This document shows positions 24,641 to 60,516 of a DNA stretch of 64,000 bases, piece after piece. Location: positions 26,375 to 90,374 of the forward strand of contig JAFVGK010000031.1 in the NCBI GenBank assembly GCA_017475035.1. The letters are read 5' to 3'. Each line of letters starts with the position of its first letter. The stretch's first letter is position 1. The notes under the pieces were generated by a model that was not told the DNA's origin, made no database searches, and worked only from the letters and a program-made list of their open reading frames with translations. The translations under genes were made by a program, and so were the position numbers. This DNA comes from Blautia sp. (lineage in GTDB: Bacteria; Bacillota; Clostridia; Lachnospirales; Lachnospiraceae).

Positions 24641-24666
24641 CTCGCAATTTTTACATCTCCATTAAT
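24641..24666 (+). promoter_or_regulatory. CTCGC-type promoter element 1
   Basis: CTCGCA, 14 nt, then ATTAAT; TTTACAT is present inside the spacer. It precedes two micro-frames, each with a good ribosome binding site. Confidence 0.7.
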
Positions 24667-24705
24667 GACAGGAGAAGACTAATTGAAAGGAGGCGATCTG
24701 AGACA

Positions 24706-24747
24706 ATGATGAACATTCTGGACAAAAAGGAGGACGATGTGAAGTGA
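24706..24747 (+). CDS. 13-residue micro-frame with strong ribosome binding site
   Basis: ATG 24706 to TGA 24747 follows GAAAGGAGG by 13 nt. The peptide (MMNILDKKEDDVK) is charged. It stands directly after promoter element 1. It may be a leader peptide or a real microprotein. Confidence 0.35.
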   Translation: MMNILDKKEDDVK

Positions 24748-24784
24748 AAAAGAGAAGTTTTACGTAAAGGAGTGAGGCTAGACA

Positions 24785-24823
24785 ATGAGAAACGGAAGTC
24801 TTGTGAAAAGGAGTGACGCGTAG
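24785..24823 (+). CDS. 12-residue micro-frame with strong ribosome binding site
   Basis: ATG 24785 to TAG 24823 (MRNGSLVKRSDA) follows AAAGGAGTGAGG. It lies between promoter element 1 and a terminator, in a transcript that seems to hold no larger gene. Confidence 0.3.
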   Translation: MRNGSLVKRSDA

Positions 24824-24864
24824 AACAGAGAGACGAAACGAGATAGTCGATTCTGACTGACACG

Positions 24865-24904
24865 AAAAGAAGTGGCTTTTACACGCCGCTTCTTTTTTTT
24901 TTCT
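24865..24904 (+). terminator. Rho-independent terminator
   Basis: AAGAAGTGGC (24867-24876) pairs with GCCGCTTCTT (24885-24894, one G-U), followed by a long T-run. It ends the micro-frame transcript. Confidence 0.88.
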
Positions 24905-24919
24905 TGTGGCCACAGTAAT

Positions 24920-24945
24920 CTCGCAAGTTTTACATGGCTTATAAT
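24920..24945 (+). promoter_or_regulatory. CTCGC-type promoter element 2
   Basis: CTCGCA, 14 nt with TTTTACAT, then a perfect TATAAT. It lies 32 nt before the start of the next gene. Confidence 0.82.
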
Positions 24946-24976
24946 AGAAAGAACATATTATAAGGAGGTTTTTGAA

Positions 24977-25349: not shown

Positions 25350-25375
25350 CTCGCAAATTTTGCATACCTTTTAAT
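25350..25375 (+). promoter_or_regulatory. CTCGC-type promoter element 3
   Basis: CTCGCA, 14 nt, TTTAAT. It drives a 39-residue gene. Confidence 0.78.
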
Positions 25376-25412
25376 GGAAGGACAATAAATACTTTAGAAG
25401 GAGGTTCTGACG

Positions 25413-27477: not shown

Positions 27478-28060
27478 GAAGATTATCGCATGGTTTAAGG
27501 CACTGATTTGCGGGCTTGAGGCGCTGGAGGAGAGCCCGGAGAAGATTGCAGCGGATCAGGCGGTGCTAACCGGGGCGGTGTCCTATACGAAGCCGCAGGA
27601 TCAGCAGCCGGTCGTGATCTATGAGGAGCGGGAGGAAGTGAAACCTGCGGAGGACGCGACGAATGGAATGGTTGAGGCTGAGGAGTTTGTTGAAATGACC
27701 GAGACTTTGAATCCCGAGCCGAGCTTTCAGTACTATAAGCTGAGCTATGTGATGGACCGTTACATCGAGTCCGTCGCGGGTGAGAAGGCGGTGAGTACCA
27801 TCAAGGGTTACCTCAGTATTCGGCGGAACTACTTCCTGGAACTGCAGGAAATGGGCGTCAATGAGATCGACGCGGTGTATGTGCAGGCTGCCCTGGATGA
27901 TGAGATGCGAAAAGGTCTGGCGCTGAAGACCGTCCAGAACGCCTATCGATTCCTGAAGAATGTGCTGGAGTATGCCTTCCAGGAGCATTGGATCCAGCGT
28001 CCGATCAACCTGGAGTATGTCAAGCCGACAATATTTGCCCAATTGAGGCCAGCGAAATGA
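27458..28060 (+). CDS. Stand-alone integrase core-binding (SAM-like) domain protein
   Basis: 200 aa. The N-terminal 95 residues are a hydrophobic patch (FLKKIIAWFKALICGLEAL) and an acidic linker. Residues of about 100-185 match the N-terminal core-binding domain of tyrosine integrases (VMDRYIESVAGEKAVSTIKGYLSIRRNYF...LKTVQNAYRFLKNVLEYAF). The next gene, the integrase, has the same domain with clear similarity (DRYIE, STIxGY, IRxNY, KTxxNA). No catalytic domain follows. ATGA overlap with the integrase implies coupled translation. It may compete for or share att DNA, or act as a directionality factor; both are inferred. Confidence 0.72.
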   Translation: MTMEFLKKIIAWFKALICGLEALEESPEKIAADQAVLTGAVSYTKPQDQQPVVIYEEREEVKPAEDATNGMVEAEEFVEMTETLNPEPSFQYYKLSYVMDRYIESVAGEKAVSTIKGYLSIRRNYFLELQEMGVNEIDAVYVQAALDDEMRKGLALKTVQNAYRFLKNVLEYAFQEHWIQRPINLEYVKPTIFAQLRPAK

Positions 28061-29100
28061 GACTGCCGAAACCTGAGAAACTTCCATCCGGCAACTGGCG
28101 GGTCAGGCTGCAGGTCGGCAAGGAGCGAAAGTCTTTCACTGCGGCCACGAAGAAGGAAGCGCTAGAGAAGGCGAAAAAGTTTTATGCCGGGATCGAAATG
28201 GAGAAGAGGATTCCTCTGACGGTCGGAAAAGCGATCGACCGGTATATCGAGGAGAAGGGCAAGGTTCTGTCTCCGTCTACGATTCAGGGATACAAGACGA
28301 TCCGTAAGAACTATCTGCAGTCTCTGATGAACATTAACATAATTGACCTGAAACAGAGTGATATTCAGGTTGCGGTCGGTGACGATGCTGTGGACGGCAA
28401 AAGCCCGAAGACGATTCGGAACGCGCACGGCTTGTTAGCGGCAGTACTTGACTTGTATCGGCCGGAATTTGTGCTGAAGACCAGATTGCCGCAGAAAAAG
28501 AAGTATACGGCTCGCATCCCCGGCGAAGAGGAGATGCAAAAGATATTGGCAGCTCTGAAGGGTGATCCTTATGAGCTGCCTATTCTTTTGGCGATCTGGC
28601 TCGGACTGCGTATGAGTGAGGTACGAGGTCTTCGCTACCGTGATATTTGCGACGGACGGGTTCACATCCACACGGCAATTGTGACTGGGCCGGACGGAGA
28701 TGTCGAGAAGGGGACGAAGACCGTTGCAGGTGATCGGTGGATCAAGCTGCCGGAGGAGATTGAGCAGCTGATCGATAAGGACAAAGTCGAGGCCAAGTCA
28801 GATGAGTTTATTGTCAAGGCGGCTCACAATACGATCTATAAAAACTTCATCCGAATCTGTGAGGTTGCCGGTGTTAAGCCCTGTCGCTTCCATGACCTGA
28901 GGCATTTTGCGGCGAGTGAATCCTTGGCTTTGGGTGTCCCGGACAAGTATTCCATGAAGCGTATGGGGCACCAGACCGACAATATGTTGAAGACAGTGTA
29001 CCAGCATACGCTGACAACCAAAGAGGACGAGTTTTCGGATCTTATTGACAAGAAAATGCGAGAATTGTATAATAGTGGACACGAAAGTGGTCACGAGTAG
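28057..29100 (+). CDS. int: Tyrosine integrase
   Basis: 347 aa from ATG 28057. Order: arm-binding domain (KLPSGNWRVRLQVGKERKSFTAATKKEAL), core-binding domain (KAIDRYIEEKG...STIQGYKTIRKNY), catalytic domain. Catalytic residues are visible: Arg in GLRMSEVRGLRY, a Lys in the following beta hairpin, HDLRHFAA, GHQ in MGHQTDNM and the nucleophile Tyr in VYQHTL. It recombines attP with the host attB. The candidate attP begins about 30 bases after the stop. The C terminus ends in a small repeat (SGHESGHE) whose DNA is similar to a repeat on the other side of attP. Confidence 0.95.
   Translation: MRLPKPEKLPSGNWRVRLQVGKERKSFTAATKKEALEKAKKFYAGIEMEKRIPLTVGKAIDRYIEEKGKVLSPSTIQGYKTIRKNYLQSLMNINIIDLKQSDIQVAVGDDAVDGKSPKTIRNAHGLLAAVLDLYRPEFVLKTRLPQKKKYTARIPGEEEMQKILAALKGDPYELPILLAIWLGLRMSEVRGLRYRDICDGRVHIHTAIVTGPDGDVEKGTKTVAGDRWIKLPEEIEQLIDKDKVEAKSDEFIVKAAHNTIYKNFIRICEVAGVKPCRFHDLRHFAASESLALGVPDKYSMKRMGHQTDNMLKTVYQHTLTTKEDEFSDLIDKKMRELYNSGHESGHE
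29075..29097 (+). repeat. Arm-type repeat, left copy
   Basis: 23 bp beginning GTGGACACGAAAGTGG, matching 29308-29330 at 19 of 23 positions in direct orientation. It lies in the last codons of int, 33 bp left of the putative att core. Paired direct repeats around a core are usual for integrase arm sites. Confidence 0.55.
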
Positions 29101-31839: not shown

Positions 31840-31865
31840 CTCGCGGATTTTTCATCTCCTTTAAT
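31840..31865 (+). promoter_or_regulatory. CTCGC-type promoter element 4
   Basis: CTCGCG, 14 nt, TTTAAT; GTGATATT lies just upstream. It lies 30 bases before the next start. Confidence 0.75.
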
Positions 31866-31895
31866 GGAACAATACTATTTGAGGAGGTTTATCCA

Positions 31896-41313: not shown

Positions 41314-41339
41314 CTCGCGAAAAATTCATCTCTCTTAAT
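41314..41339 (+). promoter_or_regulatory. CTCGC-type promoter element 5
   Basis: CTCGCG, 14 nt with TTCAT, CTTAAT. It lies 35 nt before the next start. Confidence 0.75.
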
Positions 41340-41373
41340 AGGAACCATAAAATTTTAAGGAGGTTTTGATGAG

Positions 41374-42072: not shown

Positions 42073-42098
42073 ATCGCGGATATTTCATCTTCTTTAAT
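42073..42098 (+). promoter_or_regulatory. CTCGC-type promoter element 6 (variant)
   Basis: ATCGCG, 14 nt with TTTCAT, TTTAAT. The first base differs from the consensus, but spacing is exact. It contains GGATATT. Confidence 0.65.
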
Positions 42099-42117
42099 AG
42101 AGGAGGTGAGGAATGCG

Positions 42118-42578: not shown

Positions 42579-42604
42579 CTCGCAGGAATTACACGCCTTA
42601 TAAT
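42579..42604 (+). promoter_or_regulatory. CTCGC-type promoter element 7
   Basis: CTCGCA, 14 nt with TTACAC, perfect TATAAT. It starts right after the T-run of the terminator before. Confidence 0.8.
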
Positions 42605-42622
42605 GAAAGGGGAGTGTATAAA

Positions 42623-42940: not shown

Positions 42941-42966
42941 TTCGCAAGTTTTACACACCTTATAAT
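42941..42966 (+). promoter_or_regulatory. CTCGC-type promoter element 8
   Basis: TTCGCA, 14 nt with TTTTACAC, perfect TATAAT. Confidence 0.78.
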
Positions 42967-42997
42967 GAAAGGAATAATTTTTATGGAGGTTTGTAAA

Positions 42998-43303: not shown

Positions 43304-43329
43304 CTCGCAAGTTTTACATGCCTTATAAT
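43304..43329 (+). promoter_or_regulatory. CTCGC-type promoter element 9
   Basis: CTCGCA, 14 nt with TTTTACAT, perfect TATAAT. The structured RNA below begins right after it. Confidence 0.82.
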
Positions 43330-43330
43330 G

Positions 43331-43473
43331 GAGATGAGGGCAGTGGAATTCCTGGGTTATACCGGGGCGGTTGAGATACCGTAACCACACAAATCGTATT
43401 AATTGTAGGACACCGGAGCAATCCGGAGACTTAACCGTTAGAAGCGGGGAAACCTCATCTCTTATTTTTTTTT
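43331..43473 (+). ncRNA. Candidate structured small RNA A (about 131 nt plus terminator)
   Basis: The ends GAGATGAGG (43331-43339) and CCTCATCTC (43453-43461) pair perfectly, and a long T-run follows at once. Inside are CCGGA-GCAA-TCCGG and CGGT...ACCG hairpins. There is no open frame with a ribosome binding site. A transcript from the -10 box just upstream would begin at the closing stem. I know no class that matches. Confidence 0.7.
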
Positions 43474-43504: not shown

Positions 43505-43530
43505 CCTCGCAGCTTTTACATACCTTATAA
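43505..43530 (+). promoter_or_regulatory. CTCGC-type promoter element 10
   Basis: CTCGCA, 14 nt with TTTTACAT, perfect TATAAT. Confidence 0.82.
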
Positions 43531-43572
43531 TGGAAAGAACCCTAAACTATATTTGAAAAGGAGAGCAAGGCA

Positions 43573-43809: not shown

Positions 43810-43830
43810 AACGGCTCTTAACTTTTTTTC
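43801..43830 (+). terminator. Rho-independent terminator
   Basis: AAGAGC(TG) and GGCTCTT pair around a short loop; AACTTTTTTT follows. The stem covers the stop codon. Confidence 0.75.
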
Positions 43831-43855
43831 TCGCAAATTTTACATATGTTTTAAT
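43830..43855 (+). promoter_or_regulatory. CTCGC-type promoter element 11
   Basis: CTCGCA, 14 nt with TTTTACAT, TTTAAT. Confidence 0.78.
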
Positions 43856-43896
43856 GGAGAGATCCAAATATTATTTTTCAAAAGGAGAGCAAGGCA

Positions 43897-44443: not shown

Positions 44444-44469
44444 CTCGCAAAAATTTCATACCCTTTAAT
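44444..44469 (+). promoter_or_regulatory. CTCGC-type promoter element 12
   Basis: CTCGCA, 14 nt with TTTCAT, TTTAAT. A hairpin leader follows. Confidence 0.78.
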
Positions 44470-44520
44470 GGAGAGACAGAGGATGTCCGGGCAGCAATGC
44501 TCGGCTCCTCTTTTTCTTTT
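44470..44520 (+). ncRNA. Short hairpin RNA or attenuator D
   Basis: Directly after promoter element 12, GAGGA pairs with TCCTC (with bulges), and inside CCGGGCA-GCAA-TGCTCGG forms a 7-bp stem with a GCAA loop. TTTTTCTTTT follows. It is either a short terminated RNA or an attenuator for the gene at 44562. RNA A also has a GCAA-loop hairpin. Confidence 0.55.
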
Positions 44521-44561
44521 CAATGTCTATTCAAAATTTTATGAAAAGGAGAGCATTTCAA

Positions 44562-47514: not shown

Positions 47515-47523
47515 GGTGCGGCG

Positions 47524-47703: not shown

Positions 47704-47735
47704 TATTTGAATCAACAGAAAGGAGAATGTGAGCA

Positions 47736-48830: not shown

Positions 48831-48832
48831 AA

Positions 48833-50025: not shown

Positions 50026-50043
50026 AAAGGAGACTGTAAAAAC

Positions 50044-50232
50044 ATGGGTGACAGCGAACTGAAGGAGGTCCGCTTTGATCTGTACTGCGCGACCTGCAAG
50101 CACAAAGATATTGACACAGAGCATGTGGACGTGACGAAAACCACGGAGCCCTGTAACAGCTGCCTGGAGACGGGCATGCGGGAGGGAACGGAGAAGCCGG
50201 AGCACTGGGAGGCAGCCCTGGAGAAACGATGA
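50044..50232 (+). CDS. Zinc-finger-like small protein
   Basis: 62 aa. FDLYCATCKHKDIDTEHVDVTKTTEPCNSCLETG is a CxxC...CxxC pattern typical of small phage proteins of this type. AAAGGAG upstream. Confidence 0.72.
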   Translation: MGDSELKEVRFDLYCATCKHKDIDTEHVDVTKTTEPCNSCLETGMREGTEKPEHWEAALEKR

Positions 50233-50372
50233 ATTATTGTAAATTTTATCCGGAGATCACGAATTGTGTCGATTGCAATTATTTAGACGTCATAGAAACG
50301 GACACTGATTTTAAAGTTGTTTGTTTAAAGTACGAGGAGGAATCTAATGAACAACCAAAAGACGTTCGCTGA
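50229..50372 (+). CDS. 47-residue Cys-rich protein
   Basis: ATG 50229 overlapping the previous stop, TGA 50370-50372. NYCKFYPEITNCVDCNYLDV and a later CLKY give four Cys. AT-rich codons begin here and continue to about 52980, unlike the GC-rich genes upstream. Confidence 0.62.
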   Translation: MNYCKFYPEITNCVDCNYLDVIETDTDFKVVCLKYEEESNEQPKDVR

Positions 50373-50448
50373 GTGGCTGCGGTTTATATTTCAGGAGAGG
50401 GCTGATACCTACGTGCCTAGTTATTATTGGGAGGAAAAAGCCAAATGA
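50347..50448 (+). CDS. 33-residue protein
   Basis: ATG 50347 (GAGGAGG upstream) to TGA 50448, overlapping both neighbours. Aromatic-rich (FAEWLRFIFQERADTYVPSYYWEE). FIF is written TTT ATA TTT. Confidence 0.5.
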   Translation: MNNQKTFAEWLRFIFQERADTYVPSYYWEEKAK

Positions 50449-50660
50449 TCTATATACTTACACTTAGTAAGATCTGCCCGGGAGAGCCATCTGGTTATAT
50501 TTCAGACCTTTGGGAAGACTGCTGGACAGATCGCGTTGCAGCTGAAAGAGCTTTTAATAAAATGCCGCTTGGAAACGTATATTTTCGCAAGGAACTTTGG
50601 CTGAAGGAGCCCGGCGGAAGAAGGACGCTTCTGATGGAGGAACGGTATAATGGGACCTGA
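50445..50660 (+). CDS. Small hypothetical protein
   Basis: 71 aa from ATG 50445 (GGGAGG upstream). Mixed sequence with SDLWEDCWTDRVAAERAFNKM. Overlaps the next gene by 11 bases. Confidence 0.62.
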   Translation: MIYILTLSKICPGEPSGYISDLWEDCWTDRVAAERAFNKMPLGNVYFRKELWLKEPGGRRTLLMEERYNGT

Positions 50661-51093
50661 TGACTCTCTACTTAGAAATGGTATGATAATGTATTATTCA
50701 GAAAATGGTGTACATTTTGAACCATTTCCAAAACCCTCTATAGATTATACTATTCCGGAACTTGATTCGAATTATTTTGATGAATTCTGTACGATAGGTT
50801 TTGACCTGGCAAAAGAATCAGATATGACTATATGTGGTTATATCATGCTTCCAAATAAGAAAATGTCCCGTAAGACATTCAAGAAATGGCTGATGTCCAG
50901 AGGTTTTAACAGAGATCTTGCTGAATGGTTTTGTAAAGCCGTTAAATCATTTCACGGAAAGAAAAGCTATCTATCGCTGTATCTCCATGGGCAATTCGCA
51001 TCGACCCCACAAACTTTATTTAATGATTTGTTTGACGCCCTATTTCCGATTCCGGATTCACCGTATACAAAATATAAGGAGAATAAAGAATAA
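50650..51093 (+). CDS. Hypothetical protein, AT-rich gene
   Basis: 147 aa, GGAGG upstream. Residues 60-110 are basic and helical (MSRKTFKKWLMSRGFNRDLAEWFCKAVK). No family recognised. Confidence 0.65.
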   Translation: MGPDDSLLRNGMIMYYSENGVHFEPFPKPSIDYTIPELDSNYFDEFCTIGFDLAKESDMTICGYIMLPNKKMSRKTFKKWLMSRGFNRDLAEWFCKAVKSFHGKKSYLSLYLHGQFASTPQTLFNDLFDALFPIPDSPYTKYKENKE

Positions 51094-51095
51094 TC

Positions 51096-51377
51096 ATGGA
51101 CAAAATAAAAGCTGTTACTGCAAATGATATTTCGGTTGAGGAATTCATGAAGCCGAGATGCAAGGTCAAACCCGGCGACCGCATTTATCGTAAGCATAAG
51201 GCTATGACAATTCCGGATCGGATGGAGGTTGTTGATGTAACTCCTGTCGAGACCGGATATTTTATTAAGTGTAAGTATATGTATCACGGAATCGGGCAAC
51301 AGGAGCGTACCTTCAGCGATGTGATATTCCGTGATGATTCTTGGGTGATTGAGAAGAAAGGAATTGACTTTCAATGA
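51096..51377 (+). CDS. Hypothetical protein
   Basis: 93 aa, AAGGAG upstream. Beta-type sequence (MEVVDVTPVETGYFIKCKYMYHG). VIF is written GTG ATA TTC. Overlaps the next gene by 4 bases. Confidence 0.65.
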   Translation: MDKIKAVTANDISVEEFMKPRCKVKPGDRIYRKHKAMTIPDRMEVVDVTPVETGYFIKCKYMYHGIGQQERTFSDVIFRDDSWVIEKKGIDFQ

Positions 51378-51655
51378 CTCCATCTCAGATTCTTATTTCG
51401 AATGCTCAATACTTCTGTAAAAAGCAAGGAATCAGGATCCAAGATTTTGAAGAAGAGTTGGGTTTTCGTCGTGGATATTTGGCAACCATGTTTCGAAGAG
51501 AAACTCCGATTGATCTGGACAGGGCGGTTAAGATCTCTGAAAAGTTCAATATCGCTTTAACTGAAATGATCAGCTGTGATATCCAGAGGCAGGAGCGGAT
51601 CGTTGCGCTTGAAAAGGAACTTAATCAACTTAAGAAAGAAGAAGGTTTGGCATGA
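51374..51655 (+). CDS. HTH-like protein with coiled-coil end
   Basis: 93 aa. ANAQYFCKK-type helix then IRIQDFEEELGFRRGYLATMFRRETPIDLDRAVKISEKFNIAL reads as an XRE-type HTH; the end is a short coiled coil. A likely regulator. AT-rich block. Confidence 0.7.
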   Translation: MTPSQILISNAQYFCKKQGIRIQDFEEELGFRRGYLATMFRRETPIDLDRAVKISEKFNIALTEMISCDIQRQERIVALEKELNQLKKEEGLA

Positions 51656-52116
51656 ACTATAAACAAGACTATGATATTTGCGGAAATGACCGTTATCGCG
51701 AAGGGCTTAAAGATTTGTATAAGGCTCTTTGCATTATCGCATCAGAAAGCTCGACTGGAGGAATGTCCGTTTCCGAATTAAATAATACATTTGGCTGCTG
51801 TTCTGTATGTAACATCATACTTGGAAATACACCTGAAGAAATTATCGATAAAGTAAATCGGTGGAAAGCTGAAAAAGATAAGAAAGATCAAGAATTTCAC
51901 GTTGGCGATGAAGTTGCTGTAGATAATAAGCTGATCGGAATCATTATAGATGCTGACGATGACAATGGCACTGGCATAATATGGGTAGCCTATAGAATAA
52001 CACCGGCGGCACGTGGTCTCGATTTTTGTTGGGTCAATAGGGCTGAGTGTAAGAAAACCGGGCGACACTTTGACAGTATTCCATTTGATTATAATCCGGA
52101 GAAAGGCGAAGATTAA
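51652..52116 (+). CDS. VGDE...KTGRHFD-type protein (copy 2)
   Basis: 154 aa. It is similar to 38094-38693 over nearly its whole length: a Y-x-x-GL-helix, IIDKVNRWKAEKD, FHVGDEVAV, then CKKTGRHFDSIPFDYNP. Both lie in AT-rich blocks, which suggests duplication by transfer rather than drift in place. It overlaps the HTH gene by 4 bases. Confidence 0.72.
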   Translation: MNYKQDYDICGNDRYREGLKDLYKALCIIASESSTGGMSVSELNNTFGCCSVCNIILGNTPEEIIDKVNRWKAEKDKKDQEFHVGDEVAVDNKLIGIIIDADDDNGTGIIWVAYRITPAARGLDFCWVNRAECKKTGRHFDSIPFDYNPEKGED

Positions 52117-52119
52117 ATT

Positions 52120-52527
52120 ATGGTCATTTCGGAAGACGCTTTTAATTGCCCAAACTGCGGGGCGCCAATCAACGGCGATTTGTGTCCTTACTGCGGTACT
52201 GCATTCATAGATTGGAGTGCCATCGATGTTCATAAGCCAAATTGGATTAAAATAAAGCTTGATAATAAAACCGTTCTTGTAAAAGCTATTTTAGAAGAAG
52301 CAAGCACGCATTATGGTTGTCCTGAACCTTTAGCAATTTATAGTAATGAACGTATCTTATATCCTAAAATGAATTCTAATATTATTATAGAATCAACATT
52401 TAGCTGCATTCCGTTTAAAATGCCAGGCAGCACTAATGAAGTTCTTTCTATAGAAATCAATAAAAATACCGCAGATATTCAAAAAGCCGGAGAAATATTA
52501 CATGAAATAATTTCGAAAGGTAGTTAA
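52120..52527 (+). CDS. Zinc-ribbon protein
   Basis: 135 aa. FNCPNCGAPINGDLCPYCGT is a classic zinc ribbon at residues 9-28. The rest is beta-rich with AT-rich codons. Unknown role. Confidence 0.72.
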   Translation: MVISEDAFNCPNCGAPINGDLCPYCGTAFIDWSAIDVHKPNWIKIKLDNKTVLVKAILEEASTHYGCPEPLAIYSNERILYPKMNSNIIIESTFSCIPFKMPGSTNEVLSIEINKNTADIQKAGEILHEIISKGS

Positions 52528-52529
52528 TC

Positions 52530-52982
52530 ATGGATATTTCAGAAGAATACATTACAAAAGACCAGGCGATGAAAGCTTACTGCGAACATTTCTGTCATCC
52601 AGGACCTCGCTGCCCGGATGGATATTGCAAGGAAGTTCGGGATGCTTTCGGACCACTGGAAAGTGTCGCATTTATTATTGACAAAGATGAGATCGAGGAT
52701 TGTCGCGAACTGTACGAAGAAGGCTATAACGAAGGCCTAAGGGCCGTAGAATGCATGCTTCATGTATTCTTTAAAAATTGTCCTTTACGTCCTGGTTTCG
52801 GTATGGAAAAACAAGACATAATTGAAGTTTTCGGAACTGATAATTATGGTGATATTTTTGCAAATAATTCTATATCTATAAAAGACTTTTTAGAAAAAAC
52901 GGATGAGTGGGCTTGTAAAAAAGATCTCGCGAAAGAGGAAAATAAAAGAGAAGGAGCTAAGTATGAGCATCAGTTACGATAA
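52530..52982 (+). CDS. Cys-rich hypothetical protein
   Basis: 150 aa. CEHFCHPGPRCPDGYCKEV near residue 18 is a probable metal site. The middle (YEEGYNEGLRAVECML then SISIKDFLEKTDEWACKKD) resembles the helical part of the VGDE...KTGRHFD proteins, but that end domain is missing. It overlaps the next gene by 20 bases. Confidence 0.65.
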   Translation: MDISEEYITKDQAMKAYCEHFCHPGPRCPDGYCKEVRDAFGPLESVAFIIDKDEIEDCRELYEEGYNEGLRAVECMLHVFFKNCPLRPGFGMEKQDIIEVFGTDNYGDIFANNSISIKDFLEKTDEWACKKDLAKEENKREGAKYEHQLR

Positions 52983-53925
52983 TTACATCTACGAGCACTG
53001 CGAGAACGTGCTGCGCGGACTACAGTGGATGAGAGATCACATTCCGGAGGTCGGGGACGCTGATATCTGGGTTAAGGCGATGGACGCGGCGAACCTGCAC
53101 GACGACTCGAAATGGGACGTGCGGGAATACGACGCCTATGACAGATATTTCTACGGCAGCAGATCTTCTGAGGTGGTGCGGAAGTTCGACTATGCCTGGC
53201 TGCATCATATTCACAACAACCCGCACCACTGGCAATACTGGCTGCTGTTCCAGGACGATCCGAAGGGCAAGGAATTCGTGAACCCGGAGACCGGCGACAG
53301 GATCAAGACTCCTTTCAAAGCCTTGGAGATACCGAGGTATGAGATCCTGCACATGATCGCAGACTGGTGGAGCTTCAGCTGGAAAATCGGTCGTTACGAA
53401 GAGATATTCGAGTGGTATGACTGCCACAGGAAGAAGATGATCCTGAATCCCATGACGCGGCATCTTGTGGAAGATATTCTGCTGAACCATCTGAGACCGG
53501 CGCTGATCAAGGAAGGCATGATTCCGGATACCATCATCGCTGATAGTCCTGGCGCAGAGGCACCGAAGCCTGATCTGCCAGCCTGGGAACATCAGGACCG
53601 CGAGGTAATCGGCAAAGTCATTGACAAGCGTATTACGGATGACGGACTTGAGGTGGTCGTGGCCCCGGTGCAGCACTCGGATATTTCAAACAAAGATGAT
53701 AAGGCGAAAAAGTACGGTGTGCCCGAGCAGGAGAAATTCCCCATGCCGGACGCGGATCATGTGCGTTCAGCGATTCGCTTCTTCAATTATGTCGACAAGC
53801 AGTATGAGAAGGAACTGGCCGAGGCAATCCTGAAGCGCATGAAGGAATACGGGATGAGCTTCGAGGACTTCAGCGTCGGCGAGGAGAATCGCTTCCGGAA
53901 TTATATTCCGAAGAAGGACCTATGA
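52963..53925 (+). CDS. DUF5662 protein
   Basis: 320 aa from ATG 52963 (AAGGAGC upstream). ANLHDDSKWDVREYDAYDRYFYG then WLHHIHNNPHHWQYWLL and MIADWWSFSWKIG are the family's His/Asp-rich signature, an HD-like metal fold. A C-terminal charged region of about 130 residues is added. A short relative lies at 34835. GC-rich codons resume here. Activity unknown. Confidence 0.82.
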   Translation: MSISYDNYIYEHCENVLRGLQWMRDHIPEVGDADIWVKAMDAANLHDDSKWDVREYDAYDRYFYGSRSSEVVRKFDYAWLHHIHNNPHHWQYWLLFQDDPKGKEFVNPETGDRIKTPFKALEIPRYEILHMIADWWSFSWKIGRYEEIFEWYDCHRKKMILNPMTRHLVEDILLNHLRPALIKEGMIPDTIIADSPGAEAPKPDLPAWEHQDREVIGKVIDKRITDDGLEVVVAPVQHSDISNKDDKAKKYGVPEQEKFPMPDADHVRSAIRFFNYVDKQYEKELAEAILKRMKEYGMSFEDFSVGEENRFRNYIPKKDL

Positions 53926-54128
53926 AACTCAGGCGTGTTTTCATCTATCCGAATATGAGCGCCCTGGACGCGCAAAACAAAGTGAACGCCATGCTGGAGG
54001 AGTATTCCAATTCCTCCGACATGGCGATTAATTTTGATCTGAAGATCGAAAACTCCGTGGTGGTCGGGGAGTATCACGAAACGCGGTATACCCTGATCAT
54101 CTATGTATTTGATACCAGCATTGAATGA
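53922..54128 (+). CDS. Small hypothetical protein
   Basis: 68 aa, overlaps the previous stop. Beta-type (LKIENSVVVGEYHETRYTLIIYVFD). Confidence 0.62.
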   Translation: MKLRRVFIYPNMSALDAQNKVNAMLEEYSNSSDMAINFDLKIENSVVVGEYHETRYTLIIYVFDTSIE

Positions 54129-54148
54129 TTTTTTGGAGGTGATGCAAT

Positions 54149-54454
54149 TTGAAACAGACAGTTAAGACATTCACGCACCGGTATCACGGAGAGGGCGGAC
54201 CGGTGGACGAGCAGATGAACCGATATCTGGAGGAGCACCCAAACGAGAAGGTGTCTCAGCTCGGCTATGTGCTAGGCGGCAACTTCGAGAAGGTGGTCGT
54301 CGTGTTTGATATTCGGGAGGACTCTGACGGCGACAAGCGTGAGAAAAACCGGGACAAGGGCAAGACAAAGGATCACCACAATACGGTCGGGCATGATGAG
54401 AGCAGCAACAAACAGAACCTCGGGGAGCCTCGCGTCGGCCCGTATCTGTCGTGA
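54149..54454 (+). CDS. Small hypothetical protein with charged tail
   Basis: 101 aa from TTG 54149 (GGAGGTGATGCAA before it). The first 60 residues form a domain (DEQMNRYLEEHPNEKVSQLGYVLGG); the tail is low-complexity and charged. A short domain of this look follows VFDI in other phage proteins. Confidence 0.6.
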   Translation: MKQTVKTFTHRYHGEGGPVDEQMNRYLEEHPNEKVSQLGYVLGGNFEKVVVVFDIREDSDGDKREKNRDKGKTKDHHNTVGHDESSNKQNLGEPRVGPYLS

Positions 54455-54464
54455 GGACGGCGCT

Positions 54465-54659
54465 ATGCGGACCAATCGGAACAAATACTTCTCGATCCCG
54501 AAGACGAGGAGAGGTGACCTGCTGACCTATTGGGAGGGCGGTGAGTCGGGTCACTGGGTCATCTGCAGCATGCAGGGCGTGGTTCTGGAGTACGCGGACG
54601 ACTCGGAGCTGCAGAGTGTGCTGGATATTCTGGCGGATGAAATGGAGGATGTATCATGA
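54465..54659 (+). CDS. Small hypothetical protein
   Basis: 64 aa from ATG 54465 (GAGGACGG upstream). Mixed (GDLLTYWEGGESGHWVICSMQGVV). Overlaps the next start by 4 bases. Confidence 0.6.
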   Translation: MRTNRNKYFSIPKTRRGDLLTYWEGGESGHWVICSMQGVVLEYADDSELQSVLDILADEMEDVS

Positions 54660-54724
54660 GCCCTGGACTGGGATTCGCAGTACTAGTCGGCCTGATTCTT
54701 TATATTCTGAGCAGGATCGACTGA
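54656..54724 (+). CDS. 22-residue single-pass microprotein
   Basis: ATG 54656 to TGA 54724. The peptide is almost entirely one hydrophobic helix (GFAVLVGLILYILSR). GGAGG lies 5 nt upstream, inside the previous gene. Confidence 0.5.
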   Translation: MSPGLGFAVLVGLILYILSRID

Positions 54725-54735
54725 GGTGGGGAGGC

Positions 54736-54761
54736 CTCGCAAAAATTTCATGTCCTTTAAT
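54736..54761 (+). promoter_or_regulatory. CTCGC-type promoter element 13
   Basis: CTCGCA, 14 nt with TTTCAT, TTTAAT. Structured RNA B begins right after it. Confidence 0.78.
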
Positions 54762-54848
54762 GGAGAGTGTAGACTGCTTACCTTGAATGGTAGATCAAAG
54801 CCGTGGTGTTTTTGCCCGGTCGGTAACGCACTCTCCATTATATTTTTA
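54762..54848 (+). ncRNA. Candidate structured small RNA B (75 nt plus T-run)
   Basis: Ends GGAGAGTG (54762-54769) and CACTCTCC (54829-54836) pair perfectly. Inside, TACC and GGTA can form a hairpin, and more stems are possible. TTATATTTTTA follows. It has tRNA size but no T-loop motif, so it is not a tRNA. It could be a free RNA or a leader of the gene at 54874. Confidence 0.65.
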
Positions 54849-54873
54849 ATTCAACTGAAAGGAGAGCAATGGC

Positions 54874-55746
54874 ATGATTAAAATCGTTGGACTGTTCGTG
54901 GAGGATTACATCGAGGAATTCGAGAACCTGGACTATGAGACTGATCACCAGGAGAACGTCAAGTACCACCTGTATGCGGTGGATGATCCTGGCTACAAGT
55001 GGAAGATCAGCCTGTGGGATGAGATCGGACCCTGTGGATCAGGCTACTGTATGTCGAGCTGGGGGCACATGGAGATTGAGCCGGTCAAGCAGTTCGGGCC
55101 GATGAATTATATCCCCAAGAACGGCTATCCGGTTCTGAACGCGTGCATCACCTGGAAGGACGGCGCGTACATCTGGAAAGAGAACGAGGAGAGCGAAAAG
55201 CGCTCGTGGGACAACGAGATCGACAATGATATCTTCTCCTATGACTGTGAAGGCGGAGACAGCTACTATCCATCCGGGTGTGGCTATGTGAAGATGGATC
55301 GATTTGAGCAACTGACGCGGAACATGGAAAAGAGGCCGGTCTGGATCTTCAGCGGTGCATCCGGACTCGGCAAGTCGACGCTGGGTGAGATGCTCGGCGG
55401 AAGGAAAGATATTTTCGAGACGGACTCGGTCAACGAGCTGCCGGATGAGATCTACGCGGATGTCGTGATCCTTGGGAATCGCTCGAAGTTCACGGTGGAA
55501 GATATTCTCCCGCGGCTCTACGGCAGCGTGAAAGTCATCCTGGTCGGCTTTAGCGAGTATATCGAGGAGAAGCCCGTGAAGCAGGAGCCTACGGTGAATT
55601 ACCAGGCATTCCTGGAGTATGTGAAGTCCCGGAAGGAACAGAGTTGGACGGATCACATGATCGCCATGTCTCTCGGGATGGACGGCACAGAATTCACACT
55701 GCACATGCTGAAAGCCCAGAATTACATAAGCACGGCAGACGCCTGA
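54874..55746 (+). CDS. P-loop protein with large N-terminal domain
   Basis: 290 aa, AAAGGAGAGC upstream. The N-terminal 150 residues are acidic and aromatic. WIFSGASGLGKSTLGEML near residue 157 is a Walker A motif; ADVVILGNRSKF may hold the Walker B strand. The end is helical. It may be an ATPase or kinase-like protein; the substrate is unknown. Confidence 0.72.
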   Translation: MIKIVGLFVEDYIEEFENLDYETDHQENVKYHLYAVDDPGYKWKISLWDEIGPCGSGYCMSSWGHMEIEPVKQFGPMNYIPKNGYPVLNACITWKDGAYIWKENEESEKRSWDNEIDNDIFSYDCEGGDSYYPSGCGYVKMDRFEQLTRNMEKRPVWIFSGASGLGKSTLGEMLGGRKDIFETDSVNELPDEIYADVVILGNRSKFTVEDILPRLYGSVKVILVGFSEYIEEKPVKQEPTVNYQAFLEYVKSRKEQSWTDHMIAMSLGMDGTEFTLHMLKAQNYISTADA

Positions 55747-55759
55747 TATCCCAAATTAC

Positions 55760-55793
55760 AAGGCTGTGCTTAATAGCATGGCCTTATATTTTT
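55760..55793 (+). terminator. Rho-independent terminator
   Basis: AAGGCTGTGCT pairs with AGCATGGCCTT (two G-U), followed by ATATTTTTG. The tRNA gene starts directly after it. Confidence 0.75.
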
Positions 55794-55868
55794 GCTCTCT
55801 TAGCTCAAAGGTCAGAGCCGGCGACTTATAATCGTCAGATCAGGGTTCGAGTCCCTGGGAGAGCACCA
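55794..55868 (+). tRNA. tRNA-Ile (anticodon UAU)
   Basis: 75 nt with a full cloverleaf: acceptor GCTCTCT/GGAGAGC (last pair U-G), D-stem GCTC/GAGC, anticodon stem GGCGA/TCGTC with loop CTTATAA giving anticodon UAU, T-arm CAGGG/CCCTG with TTCGAGT, and an encoded ACCA end. It would read AUA directly. Most bacteria read AUA with a lysidine-modified CAU tRNA instead, so this is an unusual tRNA. The phage writes Ile-Phe and Val-Ile-Phe with AUA unusually often (GATATT pattern). Confidence 0.92.
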
Positions 55869-55901
55869 TCCAAAAAAATATATTGTAAAGGAGAGCAAAG
55901 C

Positions 55902-56927
55902 ATGAACTGGAAACTTATCTGTGGCGTCGTGCTGGTCGGATCTCATGTGGCGGTAAGCGCTCTGGAGATCGCAGCGAATCGGAGACTAAGGAAAGTCGCA
56001 CAGCAGCGGGCCGTGGAGATGCGGCCGGAGAGCGAGACGGAGGCACTGAAGCTCGCGAAGGACGAGCTCAAGGCCTATGACAAGCTCAAGCGGGAAGAGG
56101 AGCGCGTGATGAATGTGCGCGTGGACACCTGGAAGCGTGAGGCGCGGTATGACGACCGCAAGCGGGATATTTACCGCAACCTTGAGGACGGGGTCAACCG
56201 CTTCAAGGAATCCATCGACTATGACGCGCAGAAACAGGCGGCAACAGATCTCTGCGAAAACGAACTGAAGGCCTTCAAGGAGTCCATCGACTACGACACC
56301 AAGATCGGTGATCTGGAGCGGACGATCTCGGAGGCGAGAAGCAAGTACGATGCGGATATTCGTCTGTGCGAATCCTACAGCGGGAGCAGCAACTCGGATG
56401 TGGCAGCAACACTGAAGCTGGACGCCGAGAAAGCCAAGAACAAGGCCGTCAACGAGGCGGAGGCGGAGATCAAGAAGATCAAAGCTGAAGTGGAGGCCAA
56501 GCAGAAGGTCCTGGAGAAGACCAAGCAGAACGAGATTCAGAAGCTTGAGTCTCAGGTTCTCAATGAGCGGACCAGGCTCAAGAAGGGCTCTGACGCCGAG
56601 CTGGATGCGCTGGAGAAGGAACTCAAAGCCGCCAAGGATGATATCTCGCGAGACATCGCCGCAAGCCGGACAGATGCCGACCGGGAAGCCATCAGGCGAC
56701 ACAGCACCAACAAGGAGACTGTCAAGGACCAGGAGTTCACGGATGCCAAGCGAGCCGCGGATATTCGTGAGGAGACCCCTAGGCACGAGAAGCTGGCAGA
56801 CTGGCTTAAGAGCAAGGAAGTCCCCAAGTGGCTAGTGGTGGGTCTGGCAGCAGTGCCCCTGATTGCCATCGGGTATCTCTGCGGACAATACGTCATCCTT
56901 GTAGCGAACGTCGTGAAGGCGATGTAA
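55902..56927 (+). CDS. Bitopic membrane protein with long coiled coil
   Basis: 341 aa from ATG 55902. A short hydrophobic start (WKLICGVVLVGSHVAVSAL), about 260 residues of charged coiled coil, and a C-terminal membrane segment (WLVVGLAAVPLIAIGYLCGQYVILVANVV). It could span between two membrane sites or form a scaffold. It begins a series of membrane proteins up to the right edge. Confidence 0.72.
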   Translation: MNWKLICGVVLVGSHVAVSALEIAANRRLRKVAQQRAVEMRPESETEALKLAKDELKAYDKLKREEERVMNVRVDTWKREARYDDRKRDIYRNLEDGVNRFKESIDYDAQKQAATDLCENELKAFKESIDYDTKIGDLERTISEARSKYDADIRLCESYSGSSNSDVAATLKLDAEKAKNKAVNEAEAEIKKIKAEVEAKQKVLEKTKQNEIQKLESQVLNERTRLKKGSDAELDALEKELKAAKDDISRDIAASRTDADREAIRRHSTNKETVKDQEFTDAKRAADIREETPRHEKLADWLKSKEVPKWLVVGLAAVPLIAIGYLCGQYVILVANVVKAM

Positions 56928-56930
56928 AGC

Positions 56931-56956
56931 CTCGCAAATTTTACATATCCTTTAAT
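56931..56956 (+). promoter_or_regulatory. CTCGC-type promoter element 14
   Basis: CTCGCA, 14 nt with TTTTACAT, TTTAAT. Confidence 0.8.
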
Positions 56957-56963
56957 GGTAGGA

Positions 56964-57061
56964 AGAGAAATTGAGAATGCCTGGTGGTGTGAAAAGGAAA
57001 GCACGGCCAAACCCATGGAGATGAGGGTTCGAATCCCTCCCAGCGCATTCTCTTTTTCTCT
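56964..57061 (+). ncRNA. tRNA-like structured RNA C
   Basis: Nested end stems AGAGAAA/TTTCTCT and GAGAATG/CATTCTC enclose a D-arm-like GTGT/GCAC and a perfect T-arm (GAGGG/CCCTC with TTCGAAT). The anticodon-arm position has only about 14 nt and no 5-bp stem, and no CCA follows the acceptor. So it mimics a tRNA but cannot decode normally. T-rich sequence follows. It could be a decayed tRNA or a functional mimic. Confidence 0.65.
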
Positions 57062-57106
57062 TATATTTTTATGTCGCTCGAACGAGCAGAAAGGAGAGCA
57101 GTATTC

Positions 57107-57672: not shown

Positions 57673-58569
57673 ATGGGATTCAGCACAATCCTGAAGGCAG
57701 GCGGCACAGGCGTACGGGTCTGCAGTAAATTCGTAGTGAAGCACCTGCCTACCATCTTAACGGCAGTCGGGACCGTCGGCGTGATTGTCGGCACGGTCCT
57801 GGCAGCCAAGAAGGCTCCTGAGGCGCAGGAAGAGTTTGCCAAGGAGAAGGAAAAGTGGGAGAAGATGACTCCCGAGGAGAAAGAGGAGCATGGAAAGGCC
57901 GAGTACGTCTTCCGCATTGCCAAGGTAGGAGCCAGATATTATGGGCTCGTATGCCTGGTGATCGGAGGATCGATCGTCTGCTTCTGGGTGGCGAACCATA
58001 TCAGTTTGAAGCGGACAGCGGCAGCCGTGGCAGGCCTGAAGGTCGTGAGTGATCAGCTGACCGATGAGGAAGGCAAGTTCAAGGAGAAGTTCGGCAAGAA
58101 GGAAGTCGACAAGGCCAAGGATGAGCTCAATGCGGAGAAGAACAAAGATATTAAGGTCGATCCCGAGATGGCCGCTAAGCTGAACCGCACGATCGGCGAG
58201 TGCGTCTGCTGGGATCCGATCATGAAGCATCCATTCACGTCATCCGCTGAGGCGATCCGGAGAGCCATCCGAATGGTCAAGGACGAGCTCCGGCAGCAGA
58301 TCATCGACGGAGACAAGTATGCGTTTGTGCCTTATTCAGACTTCCTGTGCTGGGCCGGATGCGAGGTAAGAGGTCCGTCTTATGACACAGATGCCGGACA
58401 GTATCTGGGATTCGGTGTCAATGTTACCGAGCGGTCGGTCGGCAATCTGGACGAGCTGATCGACGACGCTGTGGACGTGAGCTGGACAAGTGACATGTTG
58501 GAGGGAGAGATTCCGGTGCTGGCTCTCAAGTACGGAAACCCTCCGAAGTACGCGTATTTCAAGAGCTGA
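57673..58569 (+). CDS. DUF6353-like membrane protein (copy 1)
   Basis: 298 aa. Two membrane segments (LPTILTAVGTVGVIVGTVLAAKKAPEA; YYGLVCLVIGGSIVCFWVANH) with a charged coil between, then a soluble domain (TSSAEAIRRAIRMVKDELRQQIIDG, YSDFLCWAGCE, LGFGVNVTE). The layout and domain match the protein at 61908-62870. The family is common in gut Firmicutes phages; function unknown. A terminator follows. Confidence 0.75.
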   Translation: MGFSTILKAGGTGVRVCSKFVVKHLPTILTAVGTVGVIVGTVLAAKKAPEAQEEFAKEKEKWEKMTPEEKEEHGKAEYVFRIAKVGARYYGLVCLVIGGSIVCFWVANHISLKRTAAAVAGLKVVSDQLTDEEGKFKEKFGKKEVDKAKDELNAEKNKDIKVDPEMAAKLNRTIGECVCWDPIMKHPFTSSAEAIRRAIRMVKDELRQQIIDGDKYAFVPYSDFLCWAGCEVRGPSYDTDAGQYLGFGVNVTERSVGNLDELIDDAVDVSWTSDMLEGEIPVLALKYGNPPKYAYFKS

Positions 58570-58587
58570 ATCACTATCCATATATGG

Positions 58588-58632
58588 ACTGGGCTGCCTG
58601 GTAAGTGGGACGGGCGGCCCTTTCTTTTTGAA
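58588..58632 (+). terminator. Rho-independent terminator
   Basis: GGGCTGCC pairs with GGGCGGCCC across a 14-nt loop; TTTCTTTTTG follows. Confidence 0.82.
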
Positions 58633-58690
58633 TGTTAAATGGTAAATGTTAAATGTTCAATTATGAACGGTTGAAAGGAGAATTATATTC

Positions 58691-59860
58691 ATGGCCATGA
58701 ATGAAAACGAAAGCAAGACTACTGTATCGGCGGGAACCCCGAAGAACAGCGGACGCTATCCCTGGGTCGAGGATGATGGGCTGAAGGCTCTGAGCGAGAT
58801 GGATACGACTCTGATCGACCTGGATGACCAGCTCCGCGGTGTACTGGAAGATATTCAGTACTACTTCGGCCATTATGGCAGCGGAGAAGATAAAGGTATC
58901 ATAGGCGATCTTGACCATGCGATCGAGCTCCTCATACCGCGGCTCGGCTACCAGAAGGCTCTGATACGCTCACAGTACAATAAGAAGGCAACACAGCTGA
59001 ACGAGCTGGCAATCGCCTATGCACAGATCTGTGATAAGAACGCCAAGCTCGAGGAAGACTGCAAGAGACATGTCGACGACTGCAGCAACACGGCTCAGCA
59101 CTGCGTAAAACTGCAGACAGAGCTCAAGAACGAGCAGAACCGTGCCGAGAGAGATCGTGCGTATCTCAAGAATCAGATTATAGCGCTCCATCAGTATAAC
59201 TGTCAGATCCATGACGAATGCACTGACCTGCAGCAGAAGCTGAACACCACCAAGGGTGAACTCGAGGACACGCGTGATAATCTTGTAGTCGCTCGCAACA
59301 TGTACCTGCGGGAGTGCGACAAGACCAAGAAACTCGCTGAGCAGGTGGATGCACGCGACAACATTATTGCAGATCTTACGGCCGATCTTGAAGACTGGAA
59401 AGAGCGAACTGCGGAGCTGGAAGAGGAACTCGAATACGAGCAGGACGACACGAGGTATGACCGCGGATATCGTCACGGTTCGGAAGAACTGTATGATGCA
59501 CTCAAGGTCATGATCGACATGATCCGCCGTGATGATGACTTCTACAAGGTGTTCGATATCGATGAAAACGCGAACGACGATGATATTGTCAAACTGTTCG
59601 ATCAGATGAGCGCCGAAGAGTTCCTGAATGCCTGCCGGAATTACAGGAACCAGATCGTCAGAGAGATCAAGGTCGGTGACGAGATTGTTGACCTGGCCCA
59701 CGGAGATCATATGATCGTGATTGACGTCAATGATGACAGCTATAAGTGTGTGGTCAGACTCGCCCAGCCGCCGGTCCACCGCCCGAAGAAGATCTGCTCG
59801 AAGACCGGAAGGCACTACCTGCACGTACCGTTCGACTATGACGGACGCGAGCGAGGCTGA
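58691..59860 (+). CDS. Long coiled-coil protein with VGDE...KTGRH end (copy 3)
   Basis: 389 aa. A coiled coil of about 220 residues follows a polar start. The end has the helical segment (MSAEEFLNACRNYRNQIV), IKVGDEIVDLAHGDHMIVI and KICSKTGRHYLHVPFDYDG, the same module as in 38094 and 51652. Codon use is GC-rich, unlike the other two copies. Confidence 0.75.
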   Translation: MAMNENESKTTVSAGTPKNSGRYPWVEDDGLKALSEMDTTLIDLDDQLRGVLEDIQYYFGHYGSGEDKGIIGDLDHAIELLIPRLGYQKALIRSQYNKKATQLNELAIAYAQICDKNAKLEEDCKRHVDDCSNTAQHCVKLQTELKNEQNRAERDRAYLKNQIIALHQYNCQIHDECTDLQQKLNTTKGELEDTRDNLVVARNMYLRECDKTKKLAEQVDARDNIIADLTADLEDWKERTAELEEELEYEQDDTRYDRGYRHGSEELYDALKVMIDMIRRDDDFYKVFDIDENANDDDIVKLFDQMSAEEFLNACRNYRNQIVREIKVGDEIVDLAHGDHMIVIDVNDDSYKCVVRLAQPPVHRPKKICSKTGRHYLHVPFDYDGRERG

Positions 59861-59914
59861 GAATCCGGGCTTCGCGGTTTGTTAGAGGCTGTGTGACTGA
59901 TATTCGTCCGCAGC

Positions 59915-59940
59915 CTCGCAATTTTTACATCCCTTATAAT
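59915..59940 (+). promoter_or_regulatory. CTCGC-type promoter element 15
   Basis: CTCGCA, 14 nt with TTTTTACAT, perfect TATAAT. Confidence 0.82.
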
Positions 59941-59986
59941 GGAAGGAATTCCAAATATTATATCTAAAAAAAAAGGAGAGCTGAAA

Positions 59987-60343
59987 ATGGAAAACAAGAA
60001 AGTTCAGGAAGGTCAGTTTACGGAGATTCATGAGGTTAAGAACCCTGAAGCAGAATCCCAGCAGCAGACGAACACCGCCCCGGAAGAGGGCAAGACGGAT
60101 GCGCCCAAGGCCGAAAGCAAGATGAAGAGCATTGCGAAGAAAGTCGGGAAGGCACTACTGAAAGAGGCCGCATATGTCGGTGTCGGTATCGTAGTGACTC
60201 TCGGTATCTTCGGCATTCTCGGTGCTGCGGCCGGCGGCAAGAAGTCGGACGATGAGGACGGTGACAGCGAGGATTCGGATCAGGAGACCGATGACTCCGG
60301 TGACGTTACCGAGAGCAGTGACAGCGGAAGCTCGGAGGAATGA
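59987..60343 (+). CDS. Single-pass membrane protein with acidic tail
   Basis: 118 aa from ATG 59987 (AAAAGGAGAGC upstream). Polar start, one membrane segment (AAYVGVGIVVTLGIFGILGAAAGG) and a very acidic Ser/Asp tail. Overlaps the next gene by 4 bases. Confidence 0.68.
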   Translation: MENKKVQEGQFTEIHEVKNPEAESQQQTNTAPEEGKTDAPKAESKMKSIAKKVGKALLKEAAYVGVGIVVTLGIFGILGAAAGGKKSDDEDGDSEDSDQETDDSGDVTESSDSGSSEE

Positions 60344-60516
60344 TATTGGAGAGGATAACCAATATGGGGCCTGTGCAGAAATGCATGGGTCCCAGCTTTT
60401 TCGATGAGCATCCGACGGTCTATGTGAAGGAAGCGCGGGAGGGAGCCAGAGTGGAGCGGACGGATATTCTGGCGTCAAGGCCTCGCGAAAATTCCATCTC
60501 TCTTAATGAGAGCTAA
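60340..60516 (+). CDS. 58-residue hypothetical protein over a promoter element
   Basis: ATG 60340 to TAA 60516. Its last codons run through promoter element 16, which is unusual in this window. GGAGG lies upstream. It may be real or chance. Confidence 0.45.
   Translation: MILERITNMGPVQKCMGPSFFDEHPTVYVKEAREGARVERTDILASRPRENSISLNES
60482..60507 (+). promoter_or_regulatory. CTCGC-type promoter element 16
   Basis: CTCGCG, 14 nt with TTCCAT, CTTAAT. GATATT lies just upstream. Confidence 0.72.

Follow-up and report, generated by a model that had tools for sequence, protein, structure and literature searches.

Elements of about 32 bp repeated on one strand of a phage genome binned with Blautia sp. 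are probably promoters of the phage's own single-chain RNA polymerase

Which RNA polymerase reads a promoter-like element that recurs sixteen times on one strand of a phage genome and has no −35 box? The question is raised by a stretch of 64,000 nucleotides (nt; the window in what follows) from the Blautia sp. assembly GCA_017475035.1, corresponding to positions 26375-90374 of contig JAFVGK010000031.1 (here C153). An original prediction made from the DNA letters had assigned the elements to host RNA polymerase redirected by a phage sigma factor or by an activator of the MotA kind. Our analysis points elsewhere: we consider it probable that a single-chain RNA polymerase of the phage itself, the gene for which lies upstream of the window, uses the elements as its promoters. 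All sixteen predicted elements are present, all on the plus strand, and a single coordinate had to be moved by one (from 43505 to 43506). They are listed here in window coordinates, with distances to start codons of open reading frames (ORFs) where these follow.

24641..24672, + strand: putative promoter element 1 (ATTAAT), found by pattern and weight matrix
24920..24951, + strand: putative promoter element 2; ATG of a 111-amino-acid ORF at +31
25350..25381, + strand: putative promoter element 3; ATG of a 39-amino-acid ORF at +37
31840..31871, + strand: putative promoter element 4; ATG of a 90-amino-acid ORF at +30
41314..41345, + strand: putative promoter element 5 (CTTAAT); ATG of a 208-amino-acid ORF at +34
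42073..42104, + strand: putative promoter element 6 (ATCGC, TTTAAT); AGGAGG begins 2 nt past position 27, ATG at +19
42579..42610, + strand: putative promoter element 7; T-run immediately 5', ATG at +18
42941..42972, + strand: putative promoter element 8 (TTCGC); ATG at +31
43304..43335, + strand: putative promoter element 9; precedes a structured RNA
43506..43537, + strand: putative promoter element 10; ATG of a 78-amino-acid ORF at +41
43830..43861, + strand: putative promoter element 11; ATG of a 51-amino-acid ORF at +41
44444..44475, + strand: putative promoter element 12; precedes a short hairpin RNA
54736..54767, + strand: putative promoter element 13; precedes a structured RNA
56931..56962, + strand: putative promoter element 14; precedes a structured RNA
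59915..59946, + strand: putative promoter element 15; ATG of a 118-amino-acid ORF at +46
60482..60513, + strand: putative promoter element 16 (CTTAAT), found by pattern and weight matrix

The 26-nt geometry proposed for these elements, CTCGCR-N14-TWTAAT (equivalent to CTCGC-N15-TWTAAT), is right, but its strict form matches only 11 of the 16, as the first base of the box deviates at 42073 (ATCGC) and 42941 (TTCGC) and that of the hexamer at 41314 and 60482 (CTTAAT) and at 24641 (ATTAAT). The formula in the title of the prediction, CTCGC followed by 14 nt and TWTAAT, spans 25 nt and has no exact match in the window; its literal form CTCGC-N14-TWTAAT occurs at two unrelated places in the rest of the genome, and we discarded it as a miscount. 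The pattern TCGCNNNNNNTNCAYNNNNNWTAATR, which was derived from these very sites, matches these 16 places and no other in the window, where 100 dinucleotide shuffles predict 0.00 matches, and a weight matrix built from the 16 gives them 33.9-46.7 bits, the next-best place in the 64 kb reaching 7.9 bits. Conservation continues past the hexamer into positions 27-30 (GGAA/GARA), making the element longer than had been stated. By weight matrix the whole contig carries 20 elements, four of them upstream of the window (contig positions 7245, 7318, 15422 and 26210). A relaxed pattern finds 19 matches in the 5.08-Mb genome, all of them on the plus strand of C153, and its reversed form finds none. The search of the host genome for the motif, proposed as a check of the prediction, thus returns 0 matches of the relaxed pattern outside the phage contig, and the notion of a phage-specific set of promoter-like elements needing a phage protein holds. 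Short ORFs or RNAs do start just 3' of most elements; a terminator is seen before several of them.

A first hint at the reader comes from the window segment 41000-45900, for which BLAST against 50,697 phage records returned only Gordonia phage Secretariat (two records). The match, 93% identical over 42 nt, includes the whole element at 42579 and falls between annotated genes of Secretariat. Secretariat gp83 is annotated as RNA-dependent RNA polymerase, and its homologue in C153 (921 amino acids, 47% identity) is encoded upstream of the window, with a small gene right behind it.

C153:8268-11033, outside the window: polymerase gene
C153:11050-11289, outside the window: small neighbour gene of the polymerase

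The predicted polymerase is a full-length match to PHROG 4291 (E 0, residues 15-918 of 921), a family annotated 'RNA-dependent RNA polymerase'. It contains the sequence LSGADFDGD, with DFDGD as an active-site motif of the DxDxD type, and L507-D515 are invariant in 53 sequences of the family. Pfam RdRP is matched by 33 of the 53 members at E<=0.01 (best 1.3e-5), two members scoring 18.1 and 22.7 bits, below the curated cut-off of 23.8. A Sigma70_r4_2 match occurs in 50 of the 53, and in the members listed in full helix-turn-helix matches, generic in their labels, lie close to both ends of the protein. The predicted structure has a mean predicted local distance difference test score of 83.8, residues 1-28 being disordered. 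The small gene encodes a 79-amino-acid protein of PHROG 4303 (LTTxDNPxxPxxxFDxW).

The evidence that carries our reading is the joint occurrence of element and polymerase, which we approached from both sides. Starting from the element, we sampled 50 IMG/VR contigs, chosen mainly by length from 80 of at least 120 element-bearing stretches; 36 match the polymerase at E<=1e-3, or 34 without the spurious-looking G022 and G046. Among sampled contigs of at least 50 kb the polymerase is found in 18 of 20, the two exceptions being G022, whose retrieved stretch contains a single element, and G038, with no element by matrix. Of the 120 pattern-fetched stretches listed, 118 exceed 17 bits with the first matrix, and L073 and L114 do not. 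Starting from the polymerase, the exact pattern is found in 25 of 27 records (21 of 23 IMG/VR contigs and all four isolates), always on one strand per record and with no match of the reversed-pattern control; the two remaining records carry variant sites. A weight matrix, weakened as evidence by having been trained partly on contigs later scored, finds 3-26 sites in each of 28 polymerase-bearing phages and none in the reversed sequence, 344 sites lying on the polymerase strand and one on the opposite strand.

With at most one mismatch allowed, all six polymerase-positive phages of a named panel have 6-34 forward copies, the noise over the six amounting to one reverse match (in Qui) and three matches of the reversed-pattern control. 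At the same tolerance the element is absent from SPbeta, phi14:2, P23-45, phiC31 and lactococcal c2, all negative for the polymerase family, and Lactococcus phage 1706 has three forward copies and one reverse. The 34 copies of Arthrobacter phage Qui (NC_070877) lie mostly at 37.6-48.0 kb. BLAST with a 50-nt element hit 59 of the 50,697 phage records, all within five genera for which polymerase records exist as well (250 such records in total), an overlap compared by genus. Among bacterial genomes with the polymerase, nine of the 15 searched contain the exact pattern, its copies mostly gathered on a single contig. The motif is thus found only where the polymerase is, and on the polymerase strand, with exceptions in Lactococcus phage P078 and in six of these 15 genomes, to which we return below.

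From 262 unique IMG/VR-locus sites above 24 bits (first matrix) we derived the consensus [CT]TCGCAnAWWWWACAnnnCnTATAATGARA. Lineage-specific forms include YTCGCAnnnATTACACGCCCTATAATGAGACC in Secretariat, ATCGCAnAAAAAACACACCCTATAATGAGACC in ReqiPepy6, CTCGCAAGTTTTACATGCCTTATAGTGAGACC in Scap1, TTTTACAT-n3/4-CTATAGTAGAAAG in Lactococcus 1706 and ...CTCTTTTATGGAGAG in several bacterial-genome loci, some titled Oscillospiraceae. The spacing is all but fixed: for TCGCR-N(gap)-TATARTR on the polymerase strand of the 28 phages, a gap of 14 accounts for 210 of 217 matches, the remaining gaps between 8 and 23 together for 7, and the other strand yields a single match.

The positions of the elements also fit a role in phage transcription. 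The first and last 386 bases of the 90,374-base contig overlap with 6 mismatches, so that C153 is probably a complete, circularly assembled phage genome binned with a bacterium; it encodes a portal, a head maturation protease, an integrase (window 28057-29100) and two repressor-like proteins, besides a DNA polymerase, an annealing protein, a helicase and nucleases. Upstream of the RNA polymerase gene, at a distance of about 1 kb, this phage has one or two elements; of 19 bacterial-genome loci, 15 have an element 0.9-1.0 kb before the gene, and two of the remaining four are without that DNA. The block from portal to tape measure, in the 13 phages for which both block ends could be placed automatically, contains none of 133 sites, compared with 23.8 expected. 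The element at C153:15422 precedes a gene matching a virion structural protein family, showing that not all elements sit in early-type places. This element and those at C153:7245 and 7318 share AGAGGGGATA directly past TATAAT; at 7245 and 7318 this sequence opens a hairpin with a T-rich tail, resembling an attenuator (fold z −2.5 at 7245 and −0.7 at 15422).

We propose that the polymerase, perhaps aided by the adjoining small protein, would read the contiguous element as one rigid unit, made up of the TCGCA box (−25 to −21), the ACA(T/C) core (−14 to −11) and the TATAAT-like segment (−6 to −1). RNA would then begin at the purine directly after that segment (+1, within GRRA), and the enzyme would go on to transcribe small non-structural genes lying in clusters, along with short structured RNAs and the operon it belongs to, leaving the head-tail block aside.

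The start site had been placed about 7 nt past the −10 box in the original prediction. Stems of small RNAs and short leaders favour a different position, the first base after TWTAAT (position 27 of the element). Four elements directly precede sequence that folds far better than its shuffles (z −3.4 to −5.7).

43330..43464, + strand: putative small RNA; directly past TATAAT it opens with GGAGAUGAGG, which pairs with the 3' end ahead of a T-run, z −4.7
44470..44522, + strand: putative short hairpin RNA; begins at the first base past TTTAAT, z −5.7
54762..54838, + strand: putative small RNA; GGAGAGUGU pairs with its own 3' end
56957..57062, + strand: putative small RNA; 5' GGUAGG unpaired

In three of these, the hexamer is followed immediately by the 5' strand of the end stem. 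The relative G051 has a counterpart of the RNA after 43304 (87% identity over 132 nt), in which an end stem GGAAUGAG/CUCAUUCC replaces GGAGAUGAGG/CCUCAUCUCU, begins at the same base and has no upstream extension; if begun 6 nt later, the G051 RNA loses the stem (−33.5 versus −41.0 kcal/mol). Helices followed by a T-run number 39 near the 344 sites, with position 27 as their commonest 5' start, versus 25 near 1032 random anchors, the anchors being unmatched for intergenic place or composition, which lessens the force of the comparison. Among 269 leaders of the 28 phages (Shine-Dalgarno sequence and start codon within 70 nt), 30 have a Shine-Dalgarno sequence starting before position 33, some of them chance calls; in about a dozen, AGGAGG or a near form lies within 3 nt of position 27. 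An RNA start 7 nt past the hexamer would cut these early Shine-Dalgarno sequences. Three observations weigh against so precise a start: the one of the four folded RNAs that has an unpaired 5' end (after 56931), the A-U pairing of the RNA after 54736, which can run 4 nt further upstream into the hexamer, and the longer 5' leader seen in four of the six homologues of the RNA at 43330-43464. Seven leaders were folded in all, and those at window 24667-24790 and L003:15448-15500 are no stabler than shuffles. We nevertheless regard position 27 as the probable start.

As to the RNAs themselves, Rfam at gathering score assigns them to no family and reports only a tRNA-Ile; a permissive search of 43320-57100 adds one weak match on the strand opposite that tRNA and one chance-like snoRNA match. 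The RNA at 43330-43464 is conserved in six related phages in all (among them L238, at about 8195-8324, and L326, L327, L329 and L330); it ends in a T-run, and in several phages the next element comes directly after. The RNA at 56957-57062 contains GGGUUCGAAUCCC, resembling a tRNA T-arm, with no tRNA call.

The polymerase may enter the cell with the DNA, carried in the virion, and act early. Lactococcus phage 1706 orf75, a polymerase homologue in the RefSeq copy of that genome, was deposited in the original record (EU081845) as 'structural protein', a label repeated in a note of the ReqiPepy6 record. The N-terminus of the polymerase reads HYGxxRxSGRYPWGSG, with H8, G10 and S15-P19 invariant in the 53 sequences (numbering of the first sequence); this tag falls in the disordered residues 1-28 of the predicted structure. 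Given the deposited structural label and this near-invariant N-terminal tag, packaging in the virion and early action are both probable. HYGxxG(M/Q)KWG-like tags are found on other proteins in 20 of the 28 phages (by one search pattern), mostly near the portal gene, and in G058 a 202-amino-acid ORF near the portal bears the polymerase-type tag. The polymerase tag is similar to the HYGxxGMKWGxR tag of proteins encoded near the head genes, and we read the two as possibly serving the same role. In C153, five HYGxxGM(K/R)WG-tagged proteins are encoded around the head genes (C153:14700-28004, in part window 122-1630). Over a broader picture we are evenly divided: a widespread family of tailed phages would inject a single-chain two-barrel polymerase with promoter-reading helix-turn-helix domains, akin to sigma region 4, at both ends; it would recognize a contiguous promoter of about 32 bp that has hardly changed between phages of Lactococcus, Clostridia, Streptomyces, Gordonia, Arthrobacter and Rhodococcus; the tag would be its packaging signal, and the enzyme would drive its own operon together with cassettes of promoter, RNA and terminator.

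Several further observations speak against the phage polymerase as the reader, or at least blunt the case for it. With at most one mismatch, P078 has no forward copy and one reverse, yet it gives a 26-nt BLAST match, and six bacterial genomes with the polymerase lack the exact pattern, variants of it being seen instead. Across the 28 phages, distances between promoter profiles correlate with polymerase distances at rho 0.22, ninth of 15 proteins and behind helicase (0.56), g41 (0.41) and DNA polymerase (0.38), so that co-evolution does not single out the polymerase. As many as 15 of 22 tested genes occur in 26-28 of the 28 phages; since the genes for polymerase, capsid and replication move as a set, the reader cannot be identified from co-occurrence alone. 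Conservation was scored for these 22 genes plus g10 out of 130 predicted, so a small conserved activator could be missed. Finally, hhalign found no match between the polymerase and YonO, and no sequence link to a solved polymerase emerged, the best polymerase in PDB having E 1.4.

Of the alternatives, the one that fares best differs least from our reading. It holds that the polymerase needs a partner, the PHROG 4303 protein being a sigma-like subunit that reads or melts the promoter. Its gene adjoins that of the polymerase in all 28 phages; the protein matched no DNA-binding family, and the polymerase carries helix-turn-helix domains of its own. We therefore treat this variant as possible and rather doubtful.

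Less likely still, and in our view probably wrong, is the arrangement originally predicted, in which host RNA polymerase would engage a sigma-A −10 box while, at the CTCGC box, a sigma factor of the phage or an activator of the MotA kind stands in for the −35 element. The hexamer is a good −10 box, reading TATAAT or TATAGT in 252 of the 344 sites. Host sigma-A needs an A at −11 of this box; 283 of the 344 sites have it, but 10 of the 16 in the window have T instead. A TTGACA-like −35 box shows no enrichment, in line with the prediction and with activator-dependent promoters: at spacings of 16-18, four or more matching bases occur in 29 of the 344 sites compared with 195 of 1720 random places. 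The phage-only distribution of the element would suit such an activator as well, and orf47 of Lactococcus 1706 is annotated 'putative positive regulator of sigma'; at E<=0.01, however, none of the other 27 phages has a homologue of this protein, and none of the conserved genes given family names encodes a candidate, the small genes being covered only in part. The element tracks the phage polymerase, its spacing has hardly any slack, and RNA 5' ends are indicated at position 27. The A at −11 missing from 10 of the 16 window sites, the lack of −35 enrichment, the rigid spacing and the probable start site together led us to reject host sigma-A with an activator as the main explanation.

That the elements are one-directional operators, bound by a repressor for prophage silencing in the manner of mycobacteriophage stoperators, is very improbable: many mostly intergenic copies on one strand, an integrase and two repressor-like genes in the phage, and a similar arrangement reported for stoperators in Rhodococcus Cluster CA phages would fit, but the conserved element measures about 30 bp rather than 13-14, encloses a TATAAT-like segment, keeps leaders and RNA ends at a fixed distance and occurs in Scap1, a phage annotated with neither an integrase nor a repressor.

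Recognition of the element by the phage polymerase therefore remains the probable explanation. Many phages encode single-chain polymerases related to cellular RNA polymerase, and few of these have assigned promoters; in the present case the same polymerase family is repeatedly paired with the same element of about 32 bp, across phages whose hosts are very distantly related, and we found no description of this promoter in the open-licence literature searched. If our reading is true, purified enzyme and a short template would make a testable pair and add a compact expression system, a one-piece polymerase would be seen to find promoters without a sigma factor, and a function would be given to the gene behind the label 'RNA-dependent RNA polymerase' or 'helix-turn-helix protein' in many phage records.

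Among known systems, the middle promoters of phage T4 served by MotA/AsiA are similar in having an upstream box and a −10-like segment without a −35 box. They are used by host polymerase with a start about 7 nt past the −10 segment, whereas the probable start here is directly past the hexamer. Promoters of the T7 type are short and contiguous, with the start G just past a TATA-like segment, and the Scap1 sequence CTATAGTGAGA resembles them; the fold of T7 polymerase is unrelated, and the likeness would be convergence or chance. The crAss-like phage phi14:2 carries the single-chain polymerase gp66 in its virion, and this phage has no match to the C153-type polymerase or the element. YonO of the Bacillus prophage SPbeta, likewise a single-chain polymerase from a phage of a Gram-positive host, transcribes late genes, and the paper on it leaves its promoter sequence open (PMC5467207); it differs in showing no detectable sequence match to the C153 polymerase, and SPbeta lacks the element. 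Thermus phage P23-45 offers another parallel: according to the study, it has single-chain polymerases, of which the virion-carried one transcribes the first genes, two motifs have been assigned, and promoter motifs occur only in relatives with the matching polymerase (PMC10770324). The likeness to C153 thus lies in a single-chain phage polymerase combined with a motif limited to its carriers. The differences are that P23-45 matches neither the C153-type polymerase nor the element, and that its virion polymerase is, in the same study, fused to the tape measure protein, whereas the C153 polymerase is encoded by a separate gene and has helix-turn-helix ends.

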